Shown here: in pieces, positions 26,155 through 33,785 of the stretch | Layout of the letters: every line of letters begins with the position of its first letter | Numbering within the stretch: position 1 is the first letter of the stretch | From: a virus | Virus record (IMG/VR): IMGVR_UViG_3300024518_002172 | Span: 1 to 33,785 of that record | DNA: 33,785 bases | Reading direction: 5' to 3' (one strand) | Translations under genes and position numbers: made by a program | The notes under the pieces: model-generated | What the model was told of the DNA's origin: nothing | The model's input: the letters and a program-made list of their open reading frames with translations, nothing else | Databases searched by the model: none

Positions 26155-26258
26155 CCACACCTCCCGCAGCCGCTATGAGGCTGCACGGCGTAGACAGTGC
26201 GTCGGCAGCACAACCACGTCACCAGTCGCGCCGCCACCTGCCGGTCGTCGTAACTCAT
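26151..26258 (-). CDS. 35-residue Cys-rich peptide gene
   Basis: ATG 26258 overlaps the previous stop as ATGA and the TGA overlaps the next start as GTGA. The peptide begins MSYDDRQVAARLVTWLCC and ends SGCGRCG, with four cysteines in two pairs. A zinc-binding or membrane-associated role is possible. No family recognised. Existence is supported by the exact fit between coupled neighbours. Confidence 0.55.
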   Translation of the reverse strand: MSYDDRQVAARLVTWLCCRRTVYAVQPHSGCGRCG

Positions 26259-26437
26259 CGGCATACCGCCTCCAGTGTCGCGACGCGGCCGGCGAGGACG
26301 CTGACCTCGTCCGAGAAGTGCGCGATCGTCACGCGCGCATCAGCCTCAACGTCACTCCGCACGAGCCACCCGCCCGTGAGACAGCCCATCGCGTAGACCG
26401 ATACCGCGCACAGCGCCGCGAGCCCGAGGCGCGTCAT
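26255..26437 (-). CDS. Small membrane-anchored protein
   Basis: A 60-residue protein with an N-terminal membrane helix or signal anchor (LGLAALCAVSVYAMGCLTGG) and a polar, helical remainder (SDEVSVLAGRVATLEAVC). The start ATG 26437 overlaps the 27-residue gene's stop (ATGA); ATG 26443 is two codons upstream. The layout of one anchor plus a periplasmic helix is like small spanins, but it lies in the early arm, away from the lysis cassette. Confidence 0.65.
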   Translation of the reverse strand: MTRLGLAALCAVSVYAMGCLTGGWLVRSDVEADARVTIAHFSDEVSVLAGRVATLEAVCR

Positions 26438-26517
26438 CGCCATCTTTGCTCGCGTGAGACCGCGTAGTAGATGGCCGCGCAGGACGCGGCGATGATCGCC
26501 GCACAGATAAGTCTCAT
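26434..26517 (-). CDS. 27-residue membrane peptide gene
   Basis: ATG 26517 overlaps the stop of the upstream gene (ATGA) and its own TGA overlaps the next ATG. The peptide is one hydrophobic helix (MRLICAAIIAASCAAIYYAV) with a basic tail (SREQRWR). G-rich bases (GGGGGGGTGACGT) precede it. Function unknown. The overlaps at both ends support expression. Confidence 0.6.
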   Translation of the reverse strand: MRLICAAIIAASCAAIYYAVSREQRWR

Positions 26518-26741
26518 ACGTCACCCCCCCCGCGAGATGAGTGTGATGCCACGACCGTAGGGCGCCTGATCGTCTGTGACGTGATCGGCCACGTCCACGT
26601 CGGCCCGTCGATCCCGCGCGTCCCTGACCGGTAGTTCTGATCCCTGCGCCAGTGGTCCGAGAGCGGCTCCCCGAACCTCGGACGCAGGAGCCGTCGCCAC
26701 CAGCCAGAGACGGCGAGCCAGAGCGCGGAGACCCACCTCAC
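26514..26741 (-). CDS. Hypothetical Trp-rich small protein
   Basis: A 75-residue protein. GTG 26741 overlaps the stop of the ribbon-helix-helix gene (GTGA) and its stop overlaps the next ATG (ATGA). The N-terminus (MRWVSALWLAVSGWWRRLLR) could be a short membrane anchor or amphipathic helix; the rest is polar (SDHWRRDQNYRSGTRGIDGP). Another frame at 26521-26736 is open too but is not coupled to the neighbours. Confidence 0.65.
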   Translation of the reverse strand: MRWVSALWLAVSGWWRRLLRPRFGEPLSDHWRRDQNYRSGTRGIDGPTWTWPITSQTIRRPTVVASHSSRGGGDV

Positions 26742-26875
26742 TGCTCCGCTTCCAACACCCAGCGCGCGAGGAGCTGCGTGATAACGTATTTCTGCGTGCG
26801 CCCCTCGGCCGCGCAGCGCGCCTTAAACGCCTCTAGCACCTCGTCCGGGACATTCCTGGCTACTATGTTTGCCAC
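26738..26875 (-). CDS. Ribbon-helix-helix DNA-binding protein (Arc/CopG type)
   Basis: A 45-residue protein with a short strand (NIVARNVP), helix A (DEVLEAFKARCAAEG) and helix B (TQKYVITQLLARWVLEA). This is the minimal ribbon-helix-helix fold; such proteins bind DNA as dimers through the strand and usually repress their own promoter. GGAGG lies nine bases before the GTG start at 26875. A palindrome at 26927-26963 upstream is a candidate operator. The stop couples to the next gene (GTGA). It heads the chain of tiny genes down to 25485 and could control it. Confidence 0.85.
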   Translation of the reverse strand: MANIVARNVPDEVLEAFKARCAAEGRTQKYVITQLLARWVLEAEQ

Positions 26876-26926
26876 TGTCGTATACCTCCGGTGCCAGCCT
26901 AGCACACCTACCTGTTGTCACCGGTT

Positions 26927-26963
26927 GGAATTACGCATTTCCGAGATGGAAATACTGCATTCC
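26927..26963. promoter_or_regulatory. Palindromic operator candidate upstream of RHH gene
   Basis: GGAATTACGCATTTCC (26927-26942) and GGAAATACTGCATTCC (26948-26963) form an imperfect inverted repeat around five bases. Each 16-base half is itself partly symmetric. It lies in the 115-base gap between the initiator gene's stop and the ribbon-helix-helix gene, about 50-90 bases before the latter's start. No classical promoter is obvious beside it. Confidence 0.55.
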
Positions 26964-26990
26964 GTACGCTCCCTATAAACCGTCACAGTT

Positions 26991-27875
26991 TCAGCCGCCG
27001 ACCGGGCGCGCGACCTCCTCGTCGTCCCACCGGCCCTCGCTCAACCTCGCTCGCTCGTCGGAATACATCGGCAGAGTCTCGAACAGGTCACACGCGTGGC
27101 GGCTCCCGTGCATCGGCTCGCCGTCCTTGATGTGCGGACACACCCAGTCCGACGCCGCGACGCCGACGCCGACCGGGCGCGCGACCTCCTCGTCGTCCCA
27201 CCGTCCCTCATTCAGCCAGCGCGCGGGGTTCGGGATGTAGCCCTCCCTCCATTGCCGTGACTGCCCCGCCGTGGCGACAGCGGCCACAATAGCCGCTGAG
27301 AGGCTCTCAGAGGGCCGTAGGCGCTTCCACACCTTCAATGCCGCAGCTTTCCCTGCCTTCTTCGGATAGGCGCTCCAGAAGGCCGTGAAGGCGTCGGGGG
27401 TGTTAGTCGCCGCAGGCGACGGTACCTCCGTACGTACCTTTGTATCTGCTATCTGTATCTGTATTGGGTCACCTGATACATTGTCCTCGACGTGTGGTGA
27501 CACATTCGACGCCTTCCGTTTCCGATACTCCGACTGCTTGATCCGGTTGTATTCGCGGACGTCCTCGACGCCAGTCCGATTCCGGTAGTCTTGGAAGTTC
27601 AAGATAGCCCACCCTCCAGGGATGGCCTCGATGCGACGGCCCTCGTGCGCCGTCGTCCGCGACCATTCGTCAGGCGCCGAGAGTTCCGCGAGCGCCGCGA
27701 CACACTCGTCGAGCGTGATTCGGGCGATGTCGGCGAGACCAGGAACGGACCCTTCGACGGTGCCTGACTTCGTGGTGAGCGTGAGCATCGTGATCCAAAG
27801 GATGCGAGTCGGGTGCGGCGCCCTCCAGATGGTCGAGGTGTTGATTGAGTGGAATAGCTTTGTGTAGTTGGACAT
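26991..27875 (-). CDS. Phage replication initiator (wHTH plus C-terminal domain)
   Basis: A 294-residue protein. Residues 1-105 look like a winged-helix replication protein domain (TKLFHSINTSTIWRAPHPTR, GLADIARITLDECVAALAEL, GGWAILNFQDYR). Residues about 165-230 (FWSAYPKKAGKAAALKVWKR and IPNPARWLNEGRWDDE) match the C-terminal domain common in phage O-like or DnaT-like replication proteins that load the host helicase. It lies next to an origin-like region. No helicase or primase gene is seen, so host enzymes are probably recruited. The start has no ribosome-binding site but an extended -10 lies 6 bases upstream. The C-terminus carries a second copy of EGRWDDEEVARPVG, 57 residues after the first. 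Confidence 0.85.
   Translation of the reverse strand: MSNYTKLFHSINTSTIWRAPHPTRILWITMLTLTTKSGTVEGSVPGLADIARITLDECVAALAELSAPDEWSRTTAHEGRRIEAIPGGWAILNFQDYRNRTGVEDVREYNRIKQSEYRKRKASNVSPHVEDNVSGDPIQIQIADTKVRTEVPSPAATNTPDAFTAFWSAYPKKAGKAAALKVWKRLRPSESLSAAIVAAVATAGQSRQWREGYIPNPARWLNEGRWDDEEVARPVGVGVAASDWVCPHIKDGEPMHGSRHACDLFETLPMYSDERARLSEGRWDDEEVARPVGG
26997..27038. repeat. 42-bp direct repeat, copy at 3' end of initiator gene
   Basis: Matches 27168-27209 with one mismatch, 171 bases (57 codons) apart and in frame. It encodes EGRWDDEEVARPVG just before the stop, so the last part of the gene may have arisen by duplication. Confidence 0.95.
27168..27209. repeat. 42-bp direct repeat, internal copy in initiator gene
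   Basis: This copy encodes the EGRWDDE motif that normally ends the C-terminal domain of such initiators, so it is probably the original. See 26997-27038 for its partner. Confidence 0.95.
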
Positions 27876-27890
27876 ACATAATGTATATCA
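27874..27890 (-). promoter_or_regulatory. Extended -10, leaderless start and palindrome of initiator gene
   Basis: On the minus strand TGA plus TATACA (-10 at 27882-27887) ends six bases before the ATG (27875-27873), with no Shine-Dalgarno between. This mirrors the site at 319-336 and suggests a leaderless mRNA. The palindrome ATACAT-A-ATGTAT (27874-27886) covers the -10 and the start codon, so a dimeric repressor or the initiator itself could block it. Confidence 0.5.
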
Positions 27891-27920
27891 CACTTGACGA
27901 ATGTAGGCGGTCCCAATTTT

Positions 27921-27970
27921 GGCTACCTTATTCGTACAGTTTCAGCGCGAGTTGTACGAATGAGGTAGCC
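27921..27970. repeat. Long palindrome, copy 1, flanking origin-like region
   Basis: An 18-base arm (27921-27938, GGCTACCTTATTCGTACA) pairs with 27953-27970 with one mismatch around a 14-base loop. Bases 27932-27968 are identical to 28244-28280. It lies just upstream of the initiator promoter and borders the GGTGACG array, fitting an initiator or regulator binding site or a replication structure. Confidence 0.9.
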
Positions 27971-28012
27971 AGGGGGTCGGACCAGCACGCCCCACAAAGG
28001 TCTGTTTACATT

Positions 28013-28171
28013 CGTCACCATCGTCACCATCGTCACCCAGGCCTGAAAACCGCGCTCTTTCGGGTGACGAAGGGGGTGACGCAGAGCGGCATTCGTCACC
28101 GGCTTCGTCACCAGGAAACGTCGATAACGCCAATAAATACGGTCGGGGTGACGCAGGTGACGAAGGTGACG
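28013..28171. other. Iteron array, candidate replication origin
   Basis: Ten copies of GGTGACG are present. Minus-strand copies start at 28013, 28022, 28031, 28094 and 28106; plus-strand copies at 28063, 28075, 28147, 28156 and 28165. The outer triplets have a 9-base period and the inner pairs a 12-base period, so the order is 3 inverted, 2 direct, 2 inverted, 3 direct, almost symmetric about 28090. An A/T-richer stretch lies at 28113-28146. With palindromes on both sides and the initiator gene next door, a replication origin is the best reading. The unit loosely recalls the GGTGAACAG iterons of phage P4. Confidence 0.65.
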
Positions 28172-28234
28172 CAGCGAAACAGCTCTTTTCTGTAACACTT
28201 TCGGCCGCGCACACGCGTCGGGCACCTAATTTGA

Positions 28235-28280
28235 CTACCTAACTCGTACAGTTTCAGCGCGAGTTGTACGAATGAGGTAG
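28235..28280. repeat. Long palindrome, copy 2, flanking origin-like region
   Basis: A 16-base arm at 28235-28250 pairs with 28265-28280 (14 of 16) around the same 14-base loop as copy 1. The 37-base core (28244-28280) is identical to 27932-27968. The right arm is fully conserved between copies while the left arm has drifted. Confidence 0.9.
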
Positions 28281-28305
28281 TGGCCGGTGTGTACGAGTCG
28301 CGTCT

Positions 28306-28387
28306 CCTCGCGTTTCCTCGCCTTGATCCTCGCCTTTCCTCGCCTTGATCCTCGCCTTTCCTCGCCTTTCCTCGCCTTGATCCTCGC
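28306..28387. repeat. Tandem array of 10/12-bp units beside the origin
   Basis: Units CCTCGCCTTT (10 bases) and CCTCGCCTTGAT (12 bases) are joined in the order 10-12-10-12-10-10-12 plus a partial unit; the first unit has one change. No protein-like reading frame with a start uses it. It lies between the nuclease gene's stop (28432) and palindrome copy 2, and could be a protein-binding array or simple slippage product. Confidence 0.9.
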
Positions 28388-28431
28388 ACCCGTTCTGTCG
28401 GCAGGGCACCAAGGTAGTGCGGGTCTGTTTT

Positions 28432-28755
28432 TTACGCGGTGCCATGTTCACTGTGGGCGGCGAACCACCGCTCGATGTCCGCGAGCCCCTGCGTCTGGAC
28501 GTGATCCGGCGTCGTGCGGAGCACCGACCAGCCAGCGATCGCGGCGGAGTTGAGCTTCTCGATGTCGCGCAGGAACCCGGACCCCCGGGTGTGCCGGCCG
28601 CGCGTCCAGACCCCGCCGTCCACCTCCAGCGCCAGCATGTCCTCGGGCCACGCCCAGTCAAACCTCCACCGCCGAGGCGCAGCGAAGCGGAACTCGGCCA
28701 CGGGCTCCGGTATGCCGGCCAGGACGCACAGTTGCGCGACGGTTAACGGCGCCAC
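28432..28755 (-). CDS. Putative PD-(D/E)XK-like endonuclease
   Basis: A 107-residue protein with WRFDWAWPEDMLALEVDGG (about 30-48) and TRGRHTRGSGFLRDIEKLNS (51-70). This is the pattern of small phage nucleases related to DUF559/VSR-type folds (R-x-D-F-A-W-P, then L-A-x-E-V-x-G-G-x-W). D33 and E44 are likely metal ligands. Role could be junction resolution or nicking in recombination and replication. The GTG start at 28755 overlaps the HNH gene by 13 bases. Confidence 0.75.
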   Translation of the reverse strand: MAPLTVAQLCVLAGIPEPVAEFRFAAPRRWRFDWAWPEDMLALEVDGGVWTRGRHTRGSGFLRDIEKLNSAAIAGWSVLRTTPDHVQTQGLADIERWFAAHSEHGTA

Positions 28756-29036
28756 GTAAACACCGCGCTCACCGCGTCGCCGGAGAGGTCGACCTCGTGC
28801 CGGTGTACGGCGTCGTGGCAGCGCGCACAGAGAACGATCAGGTTGTCGGTGCTGTCGGTACCGCGCTGCGATCTATAAATGATGTGATGATGATGCCTCG
28901 CGTCGCCGACCCATACCCCGCAACAGCGGCACGCGTCACCGTCGCGCTCATCGACGACGGAGCAGACGCGTCGGTATATGACGCGCCGCGCAGCCGTACG
29001 TGCAGATCGTGCCCTGGCCGTCGGCCCCGGCGTCAC
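28743..29036 (-). CDS. HNH endonuclease
   Basis: A 97-residue protein. Cysteines at 36, 38 and 39, a run of four histidines at 48-51, N65 and the CARCH motif at 70-74 make an HNH nuclease with a structural zinc. Small phage HNH proteins nick or cut DNA and often assist packaging or recombination; this one lies with the recombination genes. The GTG start overlaps the NinB-like stop as GTGA. The N-terminal 18 residues are Arg/Ala-rich. Confidence 0.85.
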   Translation of the reverse strand: MTPGPTARARSARTAARRVIYRRVCSVVDERDGDACRCCGVWVGDARHHHHIIYRSQRGTDSTDNLIVLCARCHDAVHRHEVDLSGDAVSAVFTWRR

Positions 29037-29443
29037 GCGTCGGCCCCCGGCCGGCCGTCCCAGTCCGTCAGGTCTGCGCCGTAGTCGATGAGCAGCCGCA
29101 TCGCGGCGTCGGCGTAGGCCACAAACTCGGCACTGTCTAGCATCGAGGTGGAGGTTCGGCGCGGGGTGCCCAGCACGGGGTCGTTGTCGATCCTGAGTAA
29201 GCGCATCGCGACGGCCTCGTGTAGATCATTTACTTGGTCGAAGCCCAATTCTAAACTTCCGACGTGGAGCATCGACCAGTAGCGTCGGTTCGCATTCGAG
29301 GAGCGCGCAGGACGGGCGCGCGCGAGGGTGAGGGTGACACTGTGGCCCTTGTGGCGCGCGAGCAGCGTGGCGATACGCCGGCGCACCTGCTCGGGCAGGT
29401 GGCCGGTCGCATCCACGCGCGCCGTGATCGACGCGGGGGGCAT
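29033..29443 (-). CDS. NinB-like recombination protein
   Basis: A 136-residue protein. SSNANRRYWSMLH near residues 48-60, then DLHEAVAMRLLRI and STSMLDSAEFVAYADAAMRL, follow the pattern of the NinB/Orf family (RSNxQNxxxW, E-H-E-xxK, T-x-x-L-x-x-x-E-F). In lambda this protein binds single-stranded DNA and helps replace RecFOR in recombination. The start ATG 29443 overlaps the previous stop by one base (TGATG); the longer upstream frame is rejected. Confidence 0.75.
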   Translation of the reverse strand: MPPASITARVDATGHLPEQVRRRIATLLARHKGHSVTLTLARARPARSSNANRRYWSMLHVGSLELGFDQVNDLHEAVAMRLLRIDNDPVLGTPRRTSTSMLDSAEFVAYADAAMRLLIDYGADLTDWDGRPGADA

Positions 29444-29757
29444 CAGAACGGGATGTCGTCTTCGGTAATGGGCGCGACGGGTGCCGCGCTCGTCTCCTTG
29501 ACCCCCTCCCATTTCTCTCGGGGCCGCACGATGTCCCAGTCGGGGCGGCGCGATCCTTCCGGGTCGTTCGACGTGTCCCGGCGGAACACCACCAGCGGCA
29601 CCCGCTCGCGCGCAGTCAGTGTCGCGATCACCCACTGGAGCGTCGCATCGTCCCAGCGGCTCGGGTCGATCTGACCGGTCAGGTACGGGCCTCGCGCTGA
29701 TGTTTTGTCCCAAAACGCGCCGAGCCGGTTGTTCGTCGCAGTCTGCGTGTCAGTCAT
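29443..29757 (-). CDS. Putative ssDNA-binding or SSB-tailed protein
   Basis: A 104-residue protein. LGAFWDKTSARGPYLTGQID and PLVVFRRDTSNDPEGSRRPD resemble the compact beta domain of DUF736-like phage proteins (GxxWkk...GxyxsG, vvvFxN, PD). The C-terminus EDDIPF matches the acidic tip of bacterial SSB, which recruits DNA-repair enzymes. It may coat single strands for the ERF/exonuclease pair. It overlaps the preceding gene by 8 bases and has AAAGGA upstream. Confidence 0.7.
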   Translation of the reverse strand: MTDTQTATNNRLGAFWDKTSARGPYLTGQIDPSRWDDATLQWVIATLTARERVPLVVFRRDTSNDPEGSRRPDWDIVRPREKWEGVKETSAAPVAPITEDDIPF

Positions 29758-30028
29758 GTGTGTTGTCCTTTGGAAACCCCTCTACGACGCGCTTCAAATG
29801 AGCAATGGTGCCGCGTGGGAAATTGTAATTGTCCTTTAGAAACCCAGACTCGTGCCACGCAGACTTGTCATTGCTATCTAGAAGTCGGTAGACACCCTTG
29901 GTAAATGTTGGCGCTATCACCCACCGTCCACACCCTGATACCAATGGTCGACGATGTCCACGCGGCGTCTTCGACATCGCGTCCTTCGCACGATCTATAT
30001 GGGGAATCTGTGACCACTTAATTTTCAT
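29750..30028 (-). CDS. Hypothetical 92-residue protein
   Basis: The start is ATG 30028 with AGAGGAGAG upstream and an ATGA overlap with the exonuclease stop; the open frame further upstream is not protein-like. The protein is basic (MKIKWSQIPHIDRAKDAMSK, then GCGRWVIAPTFTKGVYRLLD) and ends with a helical part. Its DNA is less GC-rich than its neighbours, suggesting a separate origin. No family recognised. It is inserted between exonuclease and SSB-like genes. Confidence 0.7.
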   Translation of the reverse strand: MKIKWSQIPHIDRAKDAMSKTPRGHRRPLVSGCGRWVIAPTFTKGVYRLLDSNDKSAWHESGFLKDNYNFPRGTIAHLKRVVEGFPKDNTHD

Positions 30029-30675
30029 AGTCTCTCCTCTGCCTTTTTGGCGATAGCGGCGGCTGTCTCCGCGACCTCCGACAAGAATAAGTCGAGCGCG
30101 GTCGCGTAGCCGTCGAGGTCGAGCATCGCACGCGTAACGTGCGTGATCACGAGTTGTAGGGCCGGAGGGAATCGCGGGTCGTATGAGACGAAGTCGAGCC
30201 ACGGCACGTCGTGGCAGACATGCAGCGCGTGCGTAAGTTGCGCGGAGTGGAGCCCCGTACCACCGCGTTGCAGATAGCCCCAGTGCGTCGCCGAGCGGGG
30301 CACCTTGATCTCGACGAGCCCCTCGTAGTCGCCGATGGCGCCGTCCGGCGAGTAGCCGATCGGCTGCCGGGTCGAGGAGACGAAGCCAACCTCGCGGACG
30401 ACACGCCCGGTGGCGATTTCATACACCGCCCGGGCTTCCGCTTCGAGGTCGATTCCTCGCTGCATATCGCCGTTGACAAACCCACGCTCGTCGAGCGATG
30501 TCTCCAGCACGTTTTCGAGCGCCAACTGGACGCGGAGGTCGCGGCGCGATGCCGCTTCCCCCTTACTCACGTTTGCCATCACGGCCTTCGCGGTCGAGCC
30601 GTTCACACGGCCGGCGCGCAGCGCGTGCCACGCGTCCGTCCGCTGCTCCACGTCATGCTCGATGTAGTCTCTCAC
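30025..30675 (-). CDS. YqaJ/lambda-exonuclease-type nuclease
   Basis: A 216-residue 5'-3' exonuclease of the PD-(D/E)XK class. QRTDAWHALRAGRVNGST (about 11-28) is the entry motif, E78/E80 follow, and YSPDG with D111 plus VEIK with E122 and K124 form the catalytic core. Such enzymes resect double-strand ends and hand the strand to a partner annealing protein, here the ERF protein encoded just upstream. GTG 30675 overlaps the ERF stop (GTGA); the longer upstream frame is an artefact. Confidence 0.9.
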   Translation of the reverse strand: MRDYIEHDVEQRTDAWHALRAGRVNGSTAKAVMANVSKGEAASRRDLRVQLALENVLETSLDERGFVNGDMQRGIDLEAEARAVYEIATGRVVREVGFVSSTRQPIGYSPDGAIGDYEGLVEIKVPRSATHWGYLQRGGTGLHSAQLTHALHVCHDVPWLDFVSYDPRFPPALQLVITHVTRAMLDLDGYATALDLFLSEVAETAAAIAKKAEERL

Positions 30676-31247
30676 GACTTCACCGCCGCGTTCTTGAGCG
30701 CGTTCCAGAGAGACGCGTTCGCCCGGAGCCTCGCCTTCTGGGCGTCGGTGCCAGCGTTGACAGCGGCGATCAGCGCCTCGTAGCCGTGCGACGTCTCCGC
30801 CTGCAGCGACGCGACCCACGCGTCATAGGTCGGGTCCGTCGCCGGAGGCGCACTGGCCGCGTTCCCGTCGTCGTCCGCGTCCGGGTCAGACACGATGCCG
30901 AGCAGGGAAACGGCGCCGTAGCGACGGGCGTAGGAGATCAACGAGCCCAGTGCCTGCGGGGTCGCCGGACCCGTTGCGGTCAGAGTGAGTGCCGAGGAAA
31001 ACTCCGCGCCGCTAGCGTGGAGCAGCATCGTGGTCACAGTGACCGACGCGCCGTCGGCCGTGACAGGCTGCAGCAGCGCGAGGTTATGTCGCGCCAGGAT
31101 CGGCCGGACCCCCTCGACGAGCGTCTGCAGGGTGAGGTAGCGGCTCCGAAAGTGCGGGTTCGACCCGTCCTGTCCGAGCGTGCGAAGTTCCGCTAGTGCC
31201 GCCACGAGGTCGGCGGCGAGTGGGTTGTTAGTCTGTTTTATGGTCAC
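30672..31247 (-). CDS. erf: ERF-family single-strand annealing protein
   Basis: A 191-residue recombinase. NPHFRSRYLTLQTLVEGVRP (30-49) and QALGSLISYARRYGAVSLLG (98-117), followed by an Asp-rich stretch at 121-128, are hallmarks of the ERF family, known from P22 Erf. It anneals complementary strands made by the exonuclease downstream and can circularise incoming terminally redundant DNA. The GTG start at 31247 is fixed by the GGAGACAGACA leader; upstream in-frame sequence is not protein-like. Confidence 0.92.
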   Translation of the reverse strand: MTIKQTNNPLAADLVAALAELRTLGQDGSNPHFRSRYLTLQTLVEGVRPILARHNLALLQPVTADGASVTVTTMLLHASGAEFSSALTLTATGPATPQALGSLISYARRYGAVSLLGIVSDPDADDDGNAASAPPATDPTYDAWVASLQAETSHGYEALIAAVNAGTDAQKARLRANASLWNALKNAAVKS

Positions 31248-31258
31248 TGTCTGTCTCC
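31248..31258 (-). promoter_or_regulatory. Conserved leader/RBS of erf
   Basis: GGAGACAGACA directly before GTG 31247. One of seven near-identical leaders in the leftward arm; it decides the erf start. Confidence 0.8.
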
Positions 31259-31276
31259 TGTGTGTGTGTTTCGTGG

Positions 31277-31468
31277 TCACGATTGTAGCACGTTGGTGGC
31301 CCTCGCGTGCGCCGTCAGGGCCACTTGATACTGGGTCTCGAAGCGTGCCCAGTCGCTGAAGATCGCGCCCCACTGCTCCGGGGTGATATGGGGCGAGAGT
31401 CGCCGCTGCGTCGCGTAGCTCACATATGTCAAGTAGTCGAGCGCCTCGCCGTCTGTGCTAATGTGCAT
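31277..31468 (-). CDS. Hypothetical 63-residue early protein
   Basis: The start ATG 31468 is set by the conserved leader. The protein (STDGEALDYLTYVSYATQRR, TPEQWGAIFSDWARFETQYQ) is probably all helical and mixed charged. It lies upstream of erf, separated by 29 bases, and downstream of the helix-turn-helix gene across a stable hairpin. It might be a small inhibitor or an accessory recombination protein; no family recognised. Confidence 0.75.
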   Translation of the reverse strand: MHISTDGEALDYLTYVSYATQRRLSPHITPEQWGAIFSDWARFETQYQVALTAHARATNVLQS

Positions 31469-31479
31469 GGTCTGTCTCC
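31469..31479 (-). promoter_or_regulatory. Conserved leader/RBS
   Basis: GGAGACAGACC directly before ATG 31468. Confidence 0.8.
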
Positions 31480-31486
31480 GTTGGAT

Positions 31487-31524
31487 GAGGGGGTCCGGTT
31501 GGTCGCCGGCCCCCTCAATTTTTA
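31487..31524 (+). terminator. Terminator-like hairpin in antisense orientation
   Basis: GAGGGGG (31487-31493) pairs with CCCCCTC (31510-31516) and CCGG with CCGG inside, around a 7-base loop, followed by AATTTTTA. It is a good intrinsic terminator for rightward transcripts, although the genes here run leftward. For the leftward mRNA it is a strong hairpin between the HTH gene's stop and the next leader, and may separate their expression. Confidence 0.65.
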
Positions 31525-31755
31525 TTCCCCGTCCAGCACCCTCAGCCAATACGCGTGTAACTGGTGCGCGCCGAGGTCTGAGATTTTGTGGCCGGCCAAA
31601 AAACGGTGGATCGTCGAGTGACTGAGCCGGTCCAGCGGAGCCTCCACGAAGCCAATCTCGTTCCGCTCCGCAGCGCGGAGATAGAGCTCGCGGTAGGTGA
31701 GGCCGGCGTCGAGCCGGTGCTGGCGGAGCGCGTCGCGCAGTTCATTCTTGGTCAC
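31522..31755 (-). CDS. Helix-turn-helix regulator candidate
   Basis: A 77-residue protein. LRQHRLDAGLTYRELYLRAA (10-29) and LSHSTIHRFLAGHKISDL (44-61) form a lambda-repressor-type helix-turn-helix with a longer connection; the second gives the recognition helix. It could be a Cro-like switch for the early block. GTG 31755 is preferred (GGGGGG upstream, small overlap with the previous gene); an in-frame ATG at 31809 would add 18 residues. No larger CI-like repressor is present. Confidence 0.75.
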   Translation of the reverse strand: MTKNELRDALRQHRLDAGLTYRELYLRAAERNEIGFVEAPLDRLSHSTIHRFLAGHKISDLGAHQLHAYWLRVLDGE

Positions 31756-31963
31756 GTCTATACCCCCCGGCCAGTCCGACGAATCGACGACCGGCCCCCG
31801 CGCAGTCATCACATATCCGGCTTCCGACTCGGCCCAAATGCCAGCCGTTACCGCCGCAGCCGCACACCACCCAGACATCCTCCGGGTTGGCTTGCGTCGG
31901 GGCGTCGGGTGCGTCCTCGATGCGGACGTTCTCGACATCGTGTTGTGGGTCAGGGTTGCTCAT
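31742..31963 (-). CDS. Zinc-ribbon-like small protein
   Basis: A 73-residue protein. The N-terminal half is acidic. VCGCGGNGWHLGRVGSRICD followed by DCAGAG contains C-G-C-G-G and I-C-D-D-C pairs, the spacing of a DnaJ-type or rubredoxin-type zinc knuckle. Small proteins of this kind bind RNA, DNA or partners. The start is set by GGAGAACAGACA. It overlaps the HTH gene by 14 bases. Confidence 0.75.
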   Translation of the reverse strand: MSNPDPQHDVENVRIEDAPDAPTQANPEDVWVVCGCGGNGWHLGRVGSRICDDCAGAGRRFVGLAGGYRRDQE

Positions 31964-32256
31964 TGTCTGTTCTCCTTGGAAGTCACGTCGGTGCCGTCAC
32001 CCCCCGCAGCCGAGTCCAGCCCCGCCTCGGTTAAACGCACGGTCCGCCTGTATTTGTAAATGAGCCCCTTCCGAACCAGACTGGGTGCAACATGGGTAGC
32101 ACTAGCCGTGTTTAGGAGTCCTGTCAGCCCGTCTCTGGAAGAGGCTGGCAAGTGGTCGAGTCTCACCCAGTGGCCTTGTCGAACTGCCGCTCCACCATGG
32201 GCTACGGCGGTGTTGATCTTCTCTAACAGCGCCCGTTCGTTCGTTGTGATGTTCAT
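31960..32256 (-). CDS. Small winged-helix-like protein
   Basis: A 98-residue protein. LLEKINTAVAHGGAAVRQGH, then THVAPSLVRKGLIYKYRRTV and RLTEAGLDSAAGG fit a small winged helix, with the last part as the wing. It may bind DNA, but the pattern is weak. It has its own leader and lies 22 bases below a candidate promoter at 32279-32308. Its stop overlaps the next start (ATGA). Confidence 0.65.
   Translation of the reverse strand: MNITTNERALLEKINTAVAHGGAAVRQGHWVRLDHLPASSRDGLTGLLNTASATHVAPSLVRKGLIYKYRRTVRLTEAGLDSAAGGDGTDVTSKENRQ
31964..31975 (-). promoter_or_regulatory. Conserved leader/RBS
   Basis: GGAGAACAGACA before ATG 31963, overlapping the end of the preceding gene. Confidence 0.75.
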
Positions 32257-32269
32257 TGGTCTGTTCTCC
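32257..32269 (-). promoter_or_regulatory. Conserved leader/RBS
   Basis: GGAGAACAGACCA before ATG 32256; one extra A compared with the commonest form. Confidence 0.8.
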
Positions 32270-32278
32270 TTCTAGGTC

Positions 32279-32308
32279 AATATAGCACGACTGGGACAAG
32301 TGGAACAA
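32279..32308 (-). promoter_or_regulatory. Internal leftward promoter candidate
   Basis: On the minus strand TTGTTC (303-308 of the 32 kb block, i.e. 32303-32308) is followed after 18 bases by TATATT (32279-32284). The -10 matches 5 of 6; the -35 only 3 of 6. It would start transcription just before the gene at 32256, giving a second entry into the early arm. Confidence 0.4.
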
Positions 32309-32309
32309 G

Positions 32310-32420
32310 CTATGGGACCGGCTCCCAGAACCCGGCCGCGCCCAGCAGGACGTAGGCCGCGAGCCCTCCAACAGCGAGCGCGACGAGCGCGACGTTGCGG
32401 GGGCGCGGGGCGAGGCTCAT
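32310..32420 (-). CDS. 36-residue membrane peptide gene
   Basis: ATG 32420 overlaps the previous stop as ATGA. The peptide has a basic N-terminus (MSLAPRPRN), one hydrophobic helix (VALVALAVGGLAAYVLLGAA) and a short tail (GFWEPVP). The promoter at 32279-32308 lies just behind its stop. Function unknown; possibly a membrane factor acting early in infection. Confidence 0.6.
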   Translation of the reverse strand: MSLAPRPRNVALVALAVGGLAAYVLLGAAGFWEPVP

Positions 32421-32632
32421 ACCTCACCCCCCGGCGCTTGTCCGACGGACAGCCCGTCGGCGATCATCCCCTCGGCGAGCGCCTCGACATACCGAGGCTC
32501 GACGACGAGGGCGTTGACCCAGCGTTGGGCCTCCGGGTCGACGTGGTCGTCGATCCACGCCGTCCCTGCCGGGGTGCGGGGATGCACGAGGACGACTGAT
32601 CCGTGGTACGCGAGCGTGATGTCAGTGTTCAT
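32417..32632 (-). CDS. Conserved hypothetical phage protein, 71 residues
   Basis: The sequence (GSVVLVHPRTPAGTAWIDDH, then ALVVEPRYVEALAEGMIADG) follows a pattern familiar from many small phage and prophage proteins (G-S-I-V-x-L-x-P-x-T-x-x-G-x-A-W, then L-V-V-E-P-R-Y). Function unknown. GAAGGAGGG precedes the ATG, which overlaps the previous stop (ATGA). Confidence 0.75.
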   Translation of the reverse strand: MNTDITLAYHGSVVLVHPRTPAGTAWIDDHVDPEAQRWVNALVVEPRYVEALAEGMIADGLSVGQAPGGEV

Positions 32633-33494: not shown

Positions 33495-33773
33495 TTACGA
33501 TGTAACCTTCAGTTTTCCGGTGACACTCTGCACGCCCATCCTGATCCGTTCCTCTCTCTCGACTTTGAGCAGGGACAACTCCTGAATGCTTGCAGAAAGC
33601 TCATCCATTAGTGACTCGTCAAAACGCACCGACAACCTGTCGCACAGTTCAGACTGGCGGTGCGCCTGAACTGCGATGGCCGCGTTGACCACAGCCACGT
33701 TCGCCTCAAGTTGACGAGCCTTCGCCGTTTCCGCTGCCATCTGTGCCCACATCAGTTCCGTTGTTCGTCTCAT
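33495..33773 (-). CDS. Hypothetical coiled-coil protein, first leftward gene
   Basis: A 92-residue protein that is nearly all helical (ETAKARQLEANVAVVNAAIA, SASIQELSLLKVEREERIRM). No family recognised. The ATG is preceded by GGAGACAGACCA, which runs to the last base of the window. If the sequence is circular, its leader continues at base 17 and its promoter is the strong one at 196-225, making it the first gene expressed in the early arm. Confidence 0.75.
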   Translation of the reverse strand: MRRTTELMWAQMAAETAKARQLEANVAVVNAAIAVQAHRQSELCDRLSVRFDESLMDELSASIQELSLLKVEREERIRMGVQSVTGKLKVTS

Positions 33774-33785
33774 TGGTCTGTCTCC
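33770..33785. repeat. 16-bp direct repeat shared with the left end; conserved leader
   Basis: Identical to bases 1-16. Bases 33774-33785 are the leader GGAGACAGACCA (minus strand) of the gene starting at 33773, the fullest form of the repeated leader. Confidence 0.8.

Follow-up and report, generated by a model that had tools for sequence, protein, structure and literature searches.

A cluster of ten GGTGACG units at 28013-28171 is probably (we put it at about 0.82, judging from sequence) the iteron cluster of a phage replication origin. The phage is known from the IMG/VR record IMGVR_UViG_3300024518_002172, a 33,785-bp virus sequence that was analysed at its full length and is called the window here. 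The putative origin is best read as one of the lambda type that has been moved out of its gene, enlarged and rearranged. The evidence lies in the sites and their layout, in the homology of the initiator encoded next door, in the iteron family of that initiator's relatives and in the weak DNA that adjoins the array. A first-pass annotation had called 27876-28431 an origin-like region, and the iterons, the initiator gene and the GTRACG iterons of the relatives all speak for that description, while cumulative GC skew does not.

The segment and its repeats

IMG/VR classes the record as linear. Positions 1-16 and 33770-33785 form an exact 16-bp terminal repeat (TCATTGGTCTGTCTCC), and with identical ends the record may be a complete genome, either circular or with terminal redundancy. 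The rightward genes include the late ones (terminase, portal, scaffold, major head protein and Hc3), the leftward genes those of replication and recombination. The ORF list agrees with the earlier statement that no gap in the leftward arm is larger than 27876-28431. None of the ORFs in this segment matched PHROG, and a coding reading was dropped on that account; a known-RNA reading went the same way, with at most a sub-threshold miRNA match. A blastn search of the segment against plasmids and phages matched nothing, the near records whose major head protein matches at 75-99% are short and none holds the segment, and no close relative holding it was found. The sole match of the arm (26500-32500) to the DNA of an annotated phage is a 72% match at 28529-28696 to a hypothetical gene of Bordetella phage vB_BbrS_PHB09. 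The features of the segment and of the gene beside it are as follows.

26991-27875, minus strand: replication initiator gene, 294 aa, matching PHROG 9474 (E 5e-21) and PHROG 270 (E 5e-18), 'replication initiation protein'
27434-27483, no strand: linker stretch of low stability (sense ...CAATACAGATACAGATAGCAGATACAAAGG), ranking 4th among the record's least stable 50-mers, z 3.6
27840-27889, no strand: candidate site of unwinding, covering the start codon of the initiator; no 50-mer in the 33.8-kb record is less stable, z 4.1
27920-27971, no strand: palindrome 1, 19-bp arms with 1 mismatch and a 14-nt spacer, the record's strongest inverted repeat
27996-28188, no strand: the full dyad, imperfect, with 77% complementarity between its arms (27996-28043 and 28141-28188) and its centre at 28092.5
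28013-28037, minus strand: iteron group A, 3 x GGTGACG (CGTCACC at 28013, 28022 and 28031), period 9
28063-28081, plus strand: iteron group B, 2 x GGTGACG (at 28063 and 28075), period 12
28094-28112, minus strand: iteron group C, 2 x GGTGACG (CGTCACC at 28094 and 28106), period 12
28147-28171, plus strand: iteron group D, 3 x GGTGACG (at 28147, 28156 and 28165), period 9
28234-28281, no strand: palindrome 2, weaker, 17-bp arms with 2 mismatches, fourth among the record's inverted repeats
28305-28387, minus strand: purine-rich tandem array, 8 x GCGAGGA, period 10/12, i.e. 22 bp

The units had been described as three inverted, two direct, two inverted and three direct with 9- and 12-base periods, and exact copies were located for all ten, the spacings within groups A to D being 9,9, 12, 12 and 9,9. 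The ten occupy 160 bp (28013-28171), against 22 sites in all the remainder of the record (0.66 per kb). Every copy lies in non-coding DNA, 138-296 bp upstream of the initiator start codon. The unit itself is an asymmetric 7-bp sequence with no inverted repeat inside it for an O dimer. The triple-iteron pattern was found at three other loci, two of them coding and one (L082) in a different genome. Coding collagen-like repeats account for L083 and L084, but not for the array in the window.

The two palindromes lie 312 bp apart with 37 shared identical bases (TCGTACAGTTTCAGCGCGAGTTGTACGAATGAGGTAG), just as first reported, and compared as direct repeats their 56-mers are 91% identical. Their fully conserved spacer suggests either a recent duplication or a site that is recognised as DNA by a protein such as a dimeric regulator. 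TCGTACA/TGTACGA occurs in the record only in the palindromes and in an extra TGTACGA half-site at 28290, immediately to the right of palindrome 2. We rejected the palindromes as intrinsic terminators, neither being followed by a T-run and a terminator search giving no match. In relatives, the palindrome was absent from about 4.5 Mb of fetched loci, and no exact copy was found elsewhere. The GCGAGGA tandem array may give the origin a second element. Its purine-rich strand is the sense strand of the initiator, as it is for the GCAGAAG repeats found after the iterons in relatives; this is a resemblance only, and the array sits on the opposite side of the iterons from those repeats. A reading of the tandem array as iterons of MARIRTIKPEF-type initiators was dropped, its similarity to L007 and L021 being merely loose.

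The initiator and its relatives

The 294-aa protein is a lambda-O-like initiator, and its PHROG matches bear out the earlier claim that an initiator-like gene lies directly beside the array. The probable leaderless promoter proposed for that gene gained no support; no sigma-70-like promoter was found. The AlphaFold2 model has a confident winged-helix N-domain (about 1-92), a long helix (94-124) and a C-domain (160-229), with low confidence in the linker between the N- and C-domains. Foldseek against the PDB returned weak winged-helix matches, none of them significant, which leaves the model as the main basis for assigning the fold. Residues at about 222-238 (EGRWDDEEVARPVG) recur at the extreme C-terminus (about 279-294). 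Among the scanned genes of the leftward arm there is no other large replication protein, and there is no P-type helicase loader among the scanned genes, the small genes at 26255-26741 lying outside the scan.

A profile search with the N-domain, in which no DNA motif was used, retrieved 80 IMG/VR viral loci and 13 bacterial-genome contigs, mostly metagenome-assembled. Periodic repeats of at least three copies occupy the initiator-gene linker (nt 330-490) in 62 of 76 non-redundant relatives against a background of 3.2% of random 160-bp windows, a count that is an upper bound for true binding sites because it includes the GCAGAAG-type repeats that come after the iterons. Such repeats fall within 160 bp upstream of the ATG in 16 of the 76. 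Typically, a run of short repeats spaced about 10.5 bp apart lies directly after the N-domain, at nt 355-470, as in lambda O. The window's counterpart of this position, where relatives carry iterons and then GCAGAAG/AGATAC repeats, is the AGATAC stretch at 27434-27483; neither iterons nor any periodic repeat were found in the linker of the window's own gene. Since most relatives keep their iterons in the linker, the window phage would appear to have moved the cluster into non-coding DNA and enlarged it there.

The commonest core in the family is GTRACG. Of 72 relatives, 27 contain it at least three times in 200 bp, versus 21 of 690 control windows drawn from the relatives' own loci. GTGACG is the minor form of this core (G at 18% at that position), and other members use GTAACG, GTCAAC/TGTCAAC, TGTCCC, TCCGAC or something similar. 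In several loci a single core serves both the upstream and the in-gene set: TGTCACGC in L278, GTAACGC in L277 and TGTCCC in L221 and L247. The L172 gene contains nine GGTAACG in alternating direction and the L301 gene seven GTGACG (GTGACGAAGCGTGACGC), close to the window's GGTGACGAAGGGGGTGACGCAG; mixed orientation is common (L172, L229, L226, L265 and L245). The search for the array beside the initiator genes of relatives had a divided outcome, with the motif conserved but not its position and arrangement. Of the relatives examined, L005 alone resembles the window in having its whole set upstream, and this set is near the ATG; ten copies in a separate non-coding array together with palindromes were seen in no relative examined. 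By association, the GGTGACG units appear to belong with the window's initiator family, and the window initiator probably binds them.

Mirror symmetry, here and in other phages

The record's strongest 200-bp dyad is centred at 28092.5 (54% versus a mean of 27%, z 5.7), and three of its best four inverted repeats fall within one 360-bp stretch, groups B and C together making up the second-best. The array had been described as nearly symmetric about 28090. The centre holds, at 28092.5, but the inner gaps of 25 and 34 bp differ by 9. Eight of the ten sites pair within 3 bp in the mirror, a result that 5.6% of trials equal when these spacings and orientations are shuffled (p about 0.06). The DNA at the centre is not unusually unstable. 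The array would be two back-to-back half arrays of sites, and whatever effect the mirror layout may have, two-sided helicase loading is one hypothesis for it.

A search for two inverted units followed by one direct unit yielded 87 viral loci, more than 20 of which have at least eight GGTGACG copies per 300 bp. Arrays of 8-17 copies adjoin VapE-like/NrS-1-type and D5_N primase-helicase genes, and they also occur inside MARIRTIKPEF-type initiator genes, whose N-domain is remotely similar to the window's by profile comparison. In six MARIRTIKPEF-type loci (L327, L333, L304, L380, L331 and L312) there are GTRACG arrays of 7-10 sites inside the initiator genes. At four loci, 11-12 GGTGACG units are arrayed in a near-perfect mirror on the two sides of a centre of 90-95 bp.

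L318, 8183-8480: VapE-like primase-helicase beside the array
L376, 5288-5563: VapE-like primase-helicase beside the array
L320, 1756-2037: D5_N primase-helicase beside the array
L344, 2283-2564: the same layout

Mirror pairing in L318, L320 and L376 has p 0.003-0.007 by shuffling, and the window's initiator is absent beside these arrays. With mirrored arrays next to primase-helicase genes in unrelated phages, the layout in the window is not unique. Because the loci were selected by motif, they establish that such arrays exist elsewhere, not how frequent they are; and because the arrays adjoin unrelated primase-helicase genes, the motif alone does not identify its binder. It is tempting to see in the dyad-symmetric array a portable module for origins, common to phages whose initiators are unrelated (primase-helicases of the VapE-like and D5_N kinds, and O-like proteins with either of two N-domain types), its mirror selected for the loading of two helicases in opposite directions, but we think this rather unlikely.

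A proposed mechanism, its rivals and known origins

How might such an origin work? The initiator (26991-27875) would use its winged-helix N-domain to bind the GGTGACG units and form a multi-protein complex as it fills the array. The resulting strain would melt the adjoining weak stretch on the gene side, and a host helicase would then be recruited and loaded. The best candidate for the melting site is 27840-27889, even though about 120 bp, including a palindrome, separate it from the closest iteron; the linker stretch at 27434-27483 is the other. The array may also serve autoregulation alongside its putative function as an origin. Cumulative GC skew, proposed earlier as a check, did not point to the array: its maximum lies near 25 kb, where gene direction switches. 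Third-position skew in the leftward genes differs weakly between the left (+0.055) and the right (-0.050) of the array, with the sign expected for forks leaving the array, yet over too few bases to decide. We set skew aside as evidence for an origin, finding it dominated by transcription and uninformative.

Could the array be mainly regulatory, with the initiator or another phage regulator repressing early leftward transcription from it and the true origin lying in the linker at 27434-27483? In favour are the position of the array, immediately upstream of that gene, the additional copies that overlie the start codon in some relatives, and the low-stability AGATAC stretch retained in the linker. 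That linker is without iterons, however, so an origin inside the gene would lack binding sites, and ten copies spread over 160 bp, at a distance of 138 bp from the start, exceed the autoregulatory sets of three or four found near an ATG. We consider this reading unlikely. The arrays of 8-17 copies beside VapE-like/NrS-1-type and D5_N genes and inside MARIRTIKPEF-type genes raise another thought, that GGTGACG arrays are a cis-element of many phage replicons bound by some factor other than the O-like initiator, such as a host protein. Those loci were chosen by their motif, which biases any sharing, and the core varies within the window's initiator family as sites specific to an initiator should and those of a shared host factor should not; a common factor of this kind is very improbable. 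As for repeat-rich non-coding DNA with no part in replication, serving structure, packaging or recombination instead, it might be suggested by the presence of two palindromes and a tandem array beside the iterons, but motif and adjacency fit the iterons of the initiator family, and we give the idea almost no credence.

An iteron origin that has left its initiator gene is the reading we prefer. It provides a concrete, testable origin candidate for an uncultured phage and, if true, a natural case of an origin outside its initiator gene. The relatives form a large O-like family with readable candidate sites, useful for predicting origins and for studying how initiator specificity changes. Should mirrored arrays direct two-sided helicase loading, the near-perfectly symmetric ones would be good models.

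Among the closest known systems are the uncharacterised O-like relatives that share the N-domain (L172, L301, L278, L277, L005 and others), most of them 46-59% identical in that domain and many with the GTRACG core. Their iterons have a period of about 9-12 and in some cases mixed orientation, as in the window, with its GTRACG core and similar period. They lie in the gene linker and/or as three or four copies just upstream of the ATG, whereas those of the window lie farther upstream, 138 bp from the start. The mirrored loci L318, L320, L344 and L376 have in common with the window the 7-mer, the dyad-symmetric layout and the adjoining replication genes; they differ in a more exact symmetry, with 11-12 sites around a 90-95 bp centre, and (in L318, L320 and L376) in a VapE-like or D5_N replication protein.

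In ori-lambda, the iterons are inverted repeats of about 19 bp inside the O gene, each binding an O dimer, and to one side of them lies a 40-bp A+T-rich tract (PMC7466680, PMC5043065). Lambdoid origins and the window alike have a cluster of repeated sites tied to an O-like gene, which in the window directly adjoins them. A low-stability tract is nearby in both, though the window's candidate (27840-27889) is about 120 bp away from the iterons. Unlike ori-lambda, the window has 7-bp units that are not inverted repeats, outside the gene and in four groups of alternating direction. The origins of PICI/SaPI elements, which lie 3' to the pri-rep gene, have two sets of iterons flanking an AT-rich region (PMC6092414). 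The window is similar in having iterons on either side of a centre and different in that this centre is not AT-rich and its initiator is O-like. It is the mirror arrays of L318, L320 and L376 that resemble the PICI plan of two iteron sets around a melting region (PMC6092414).
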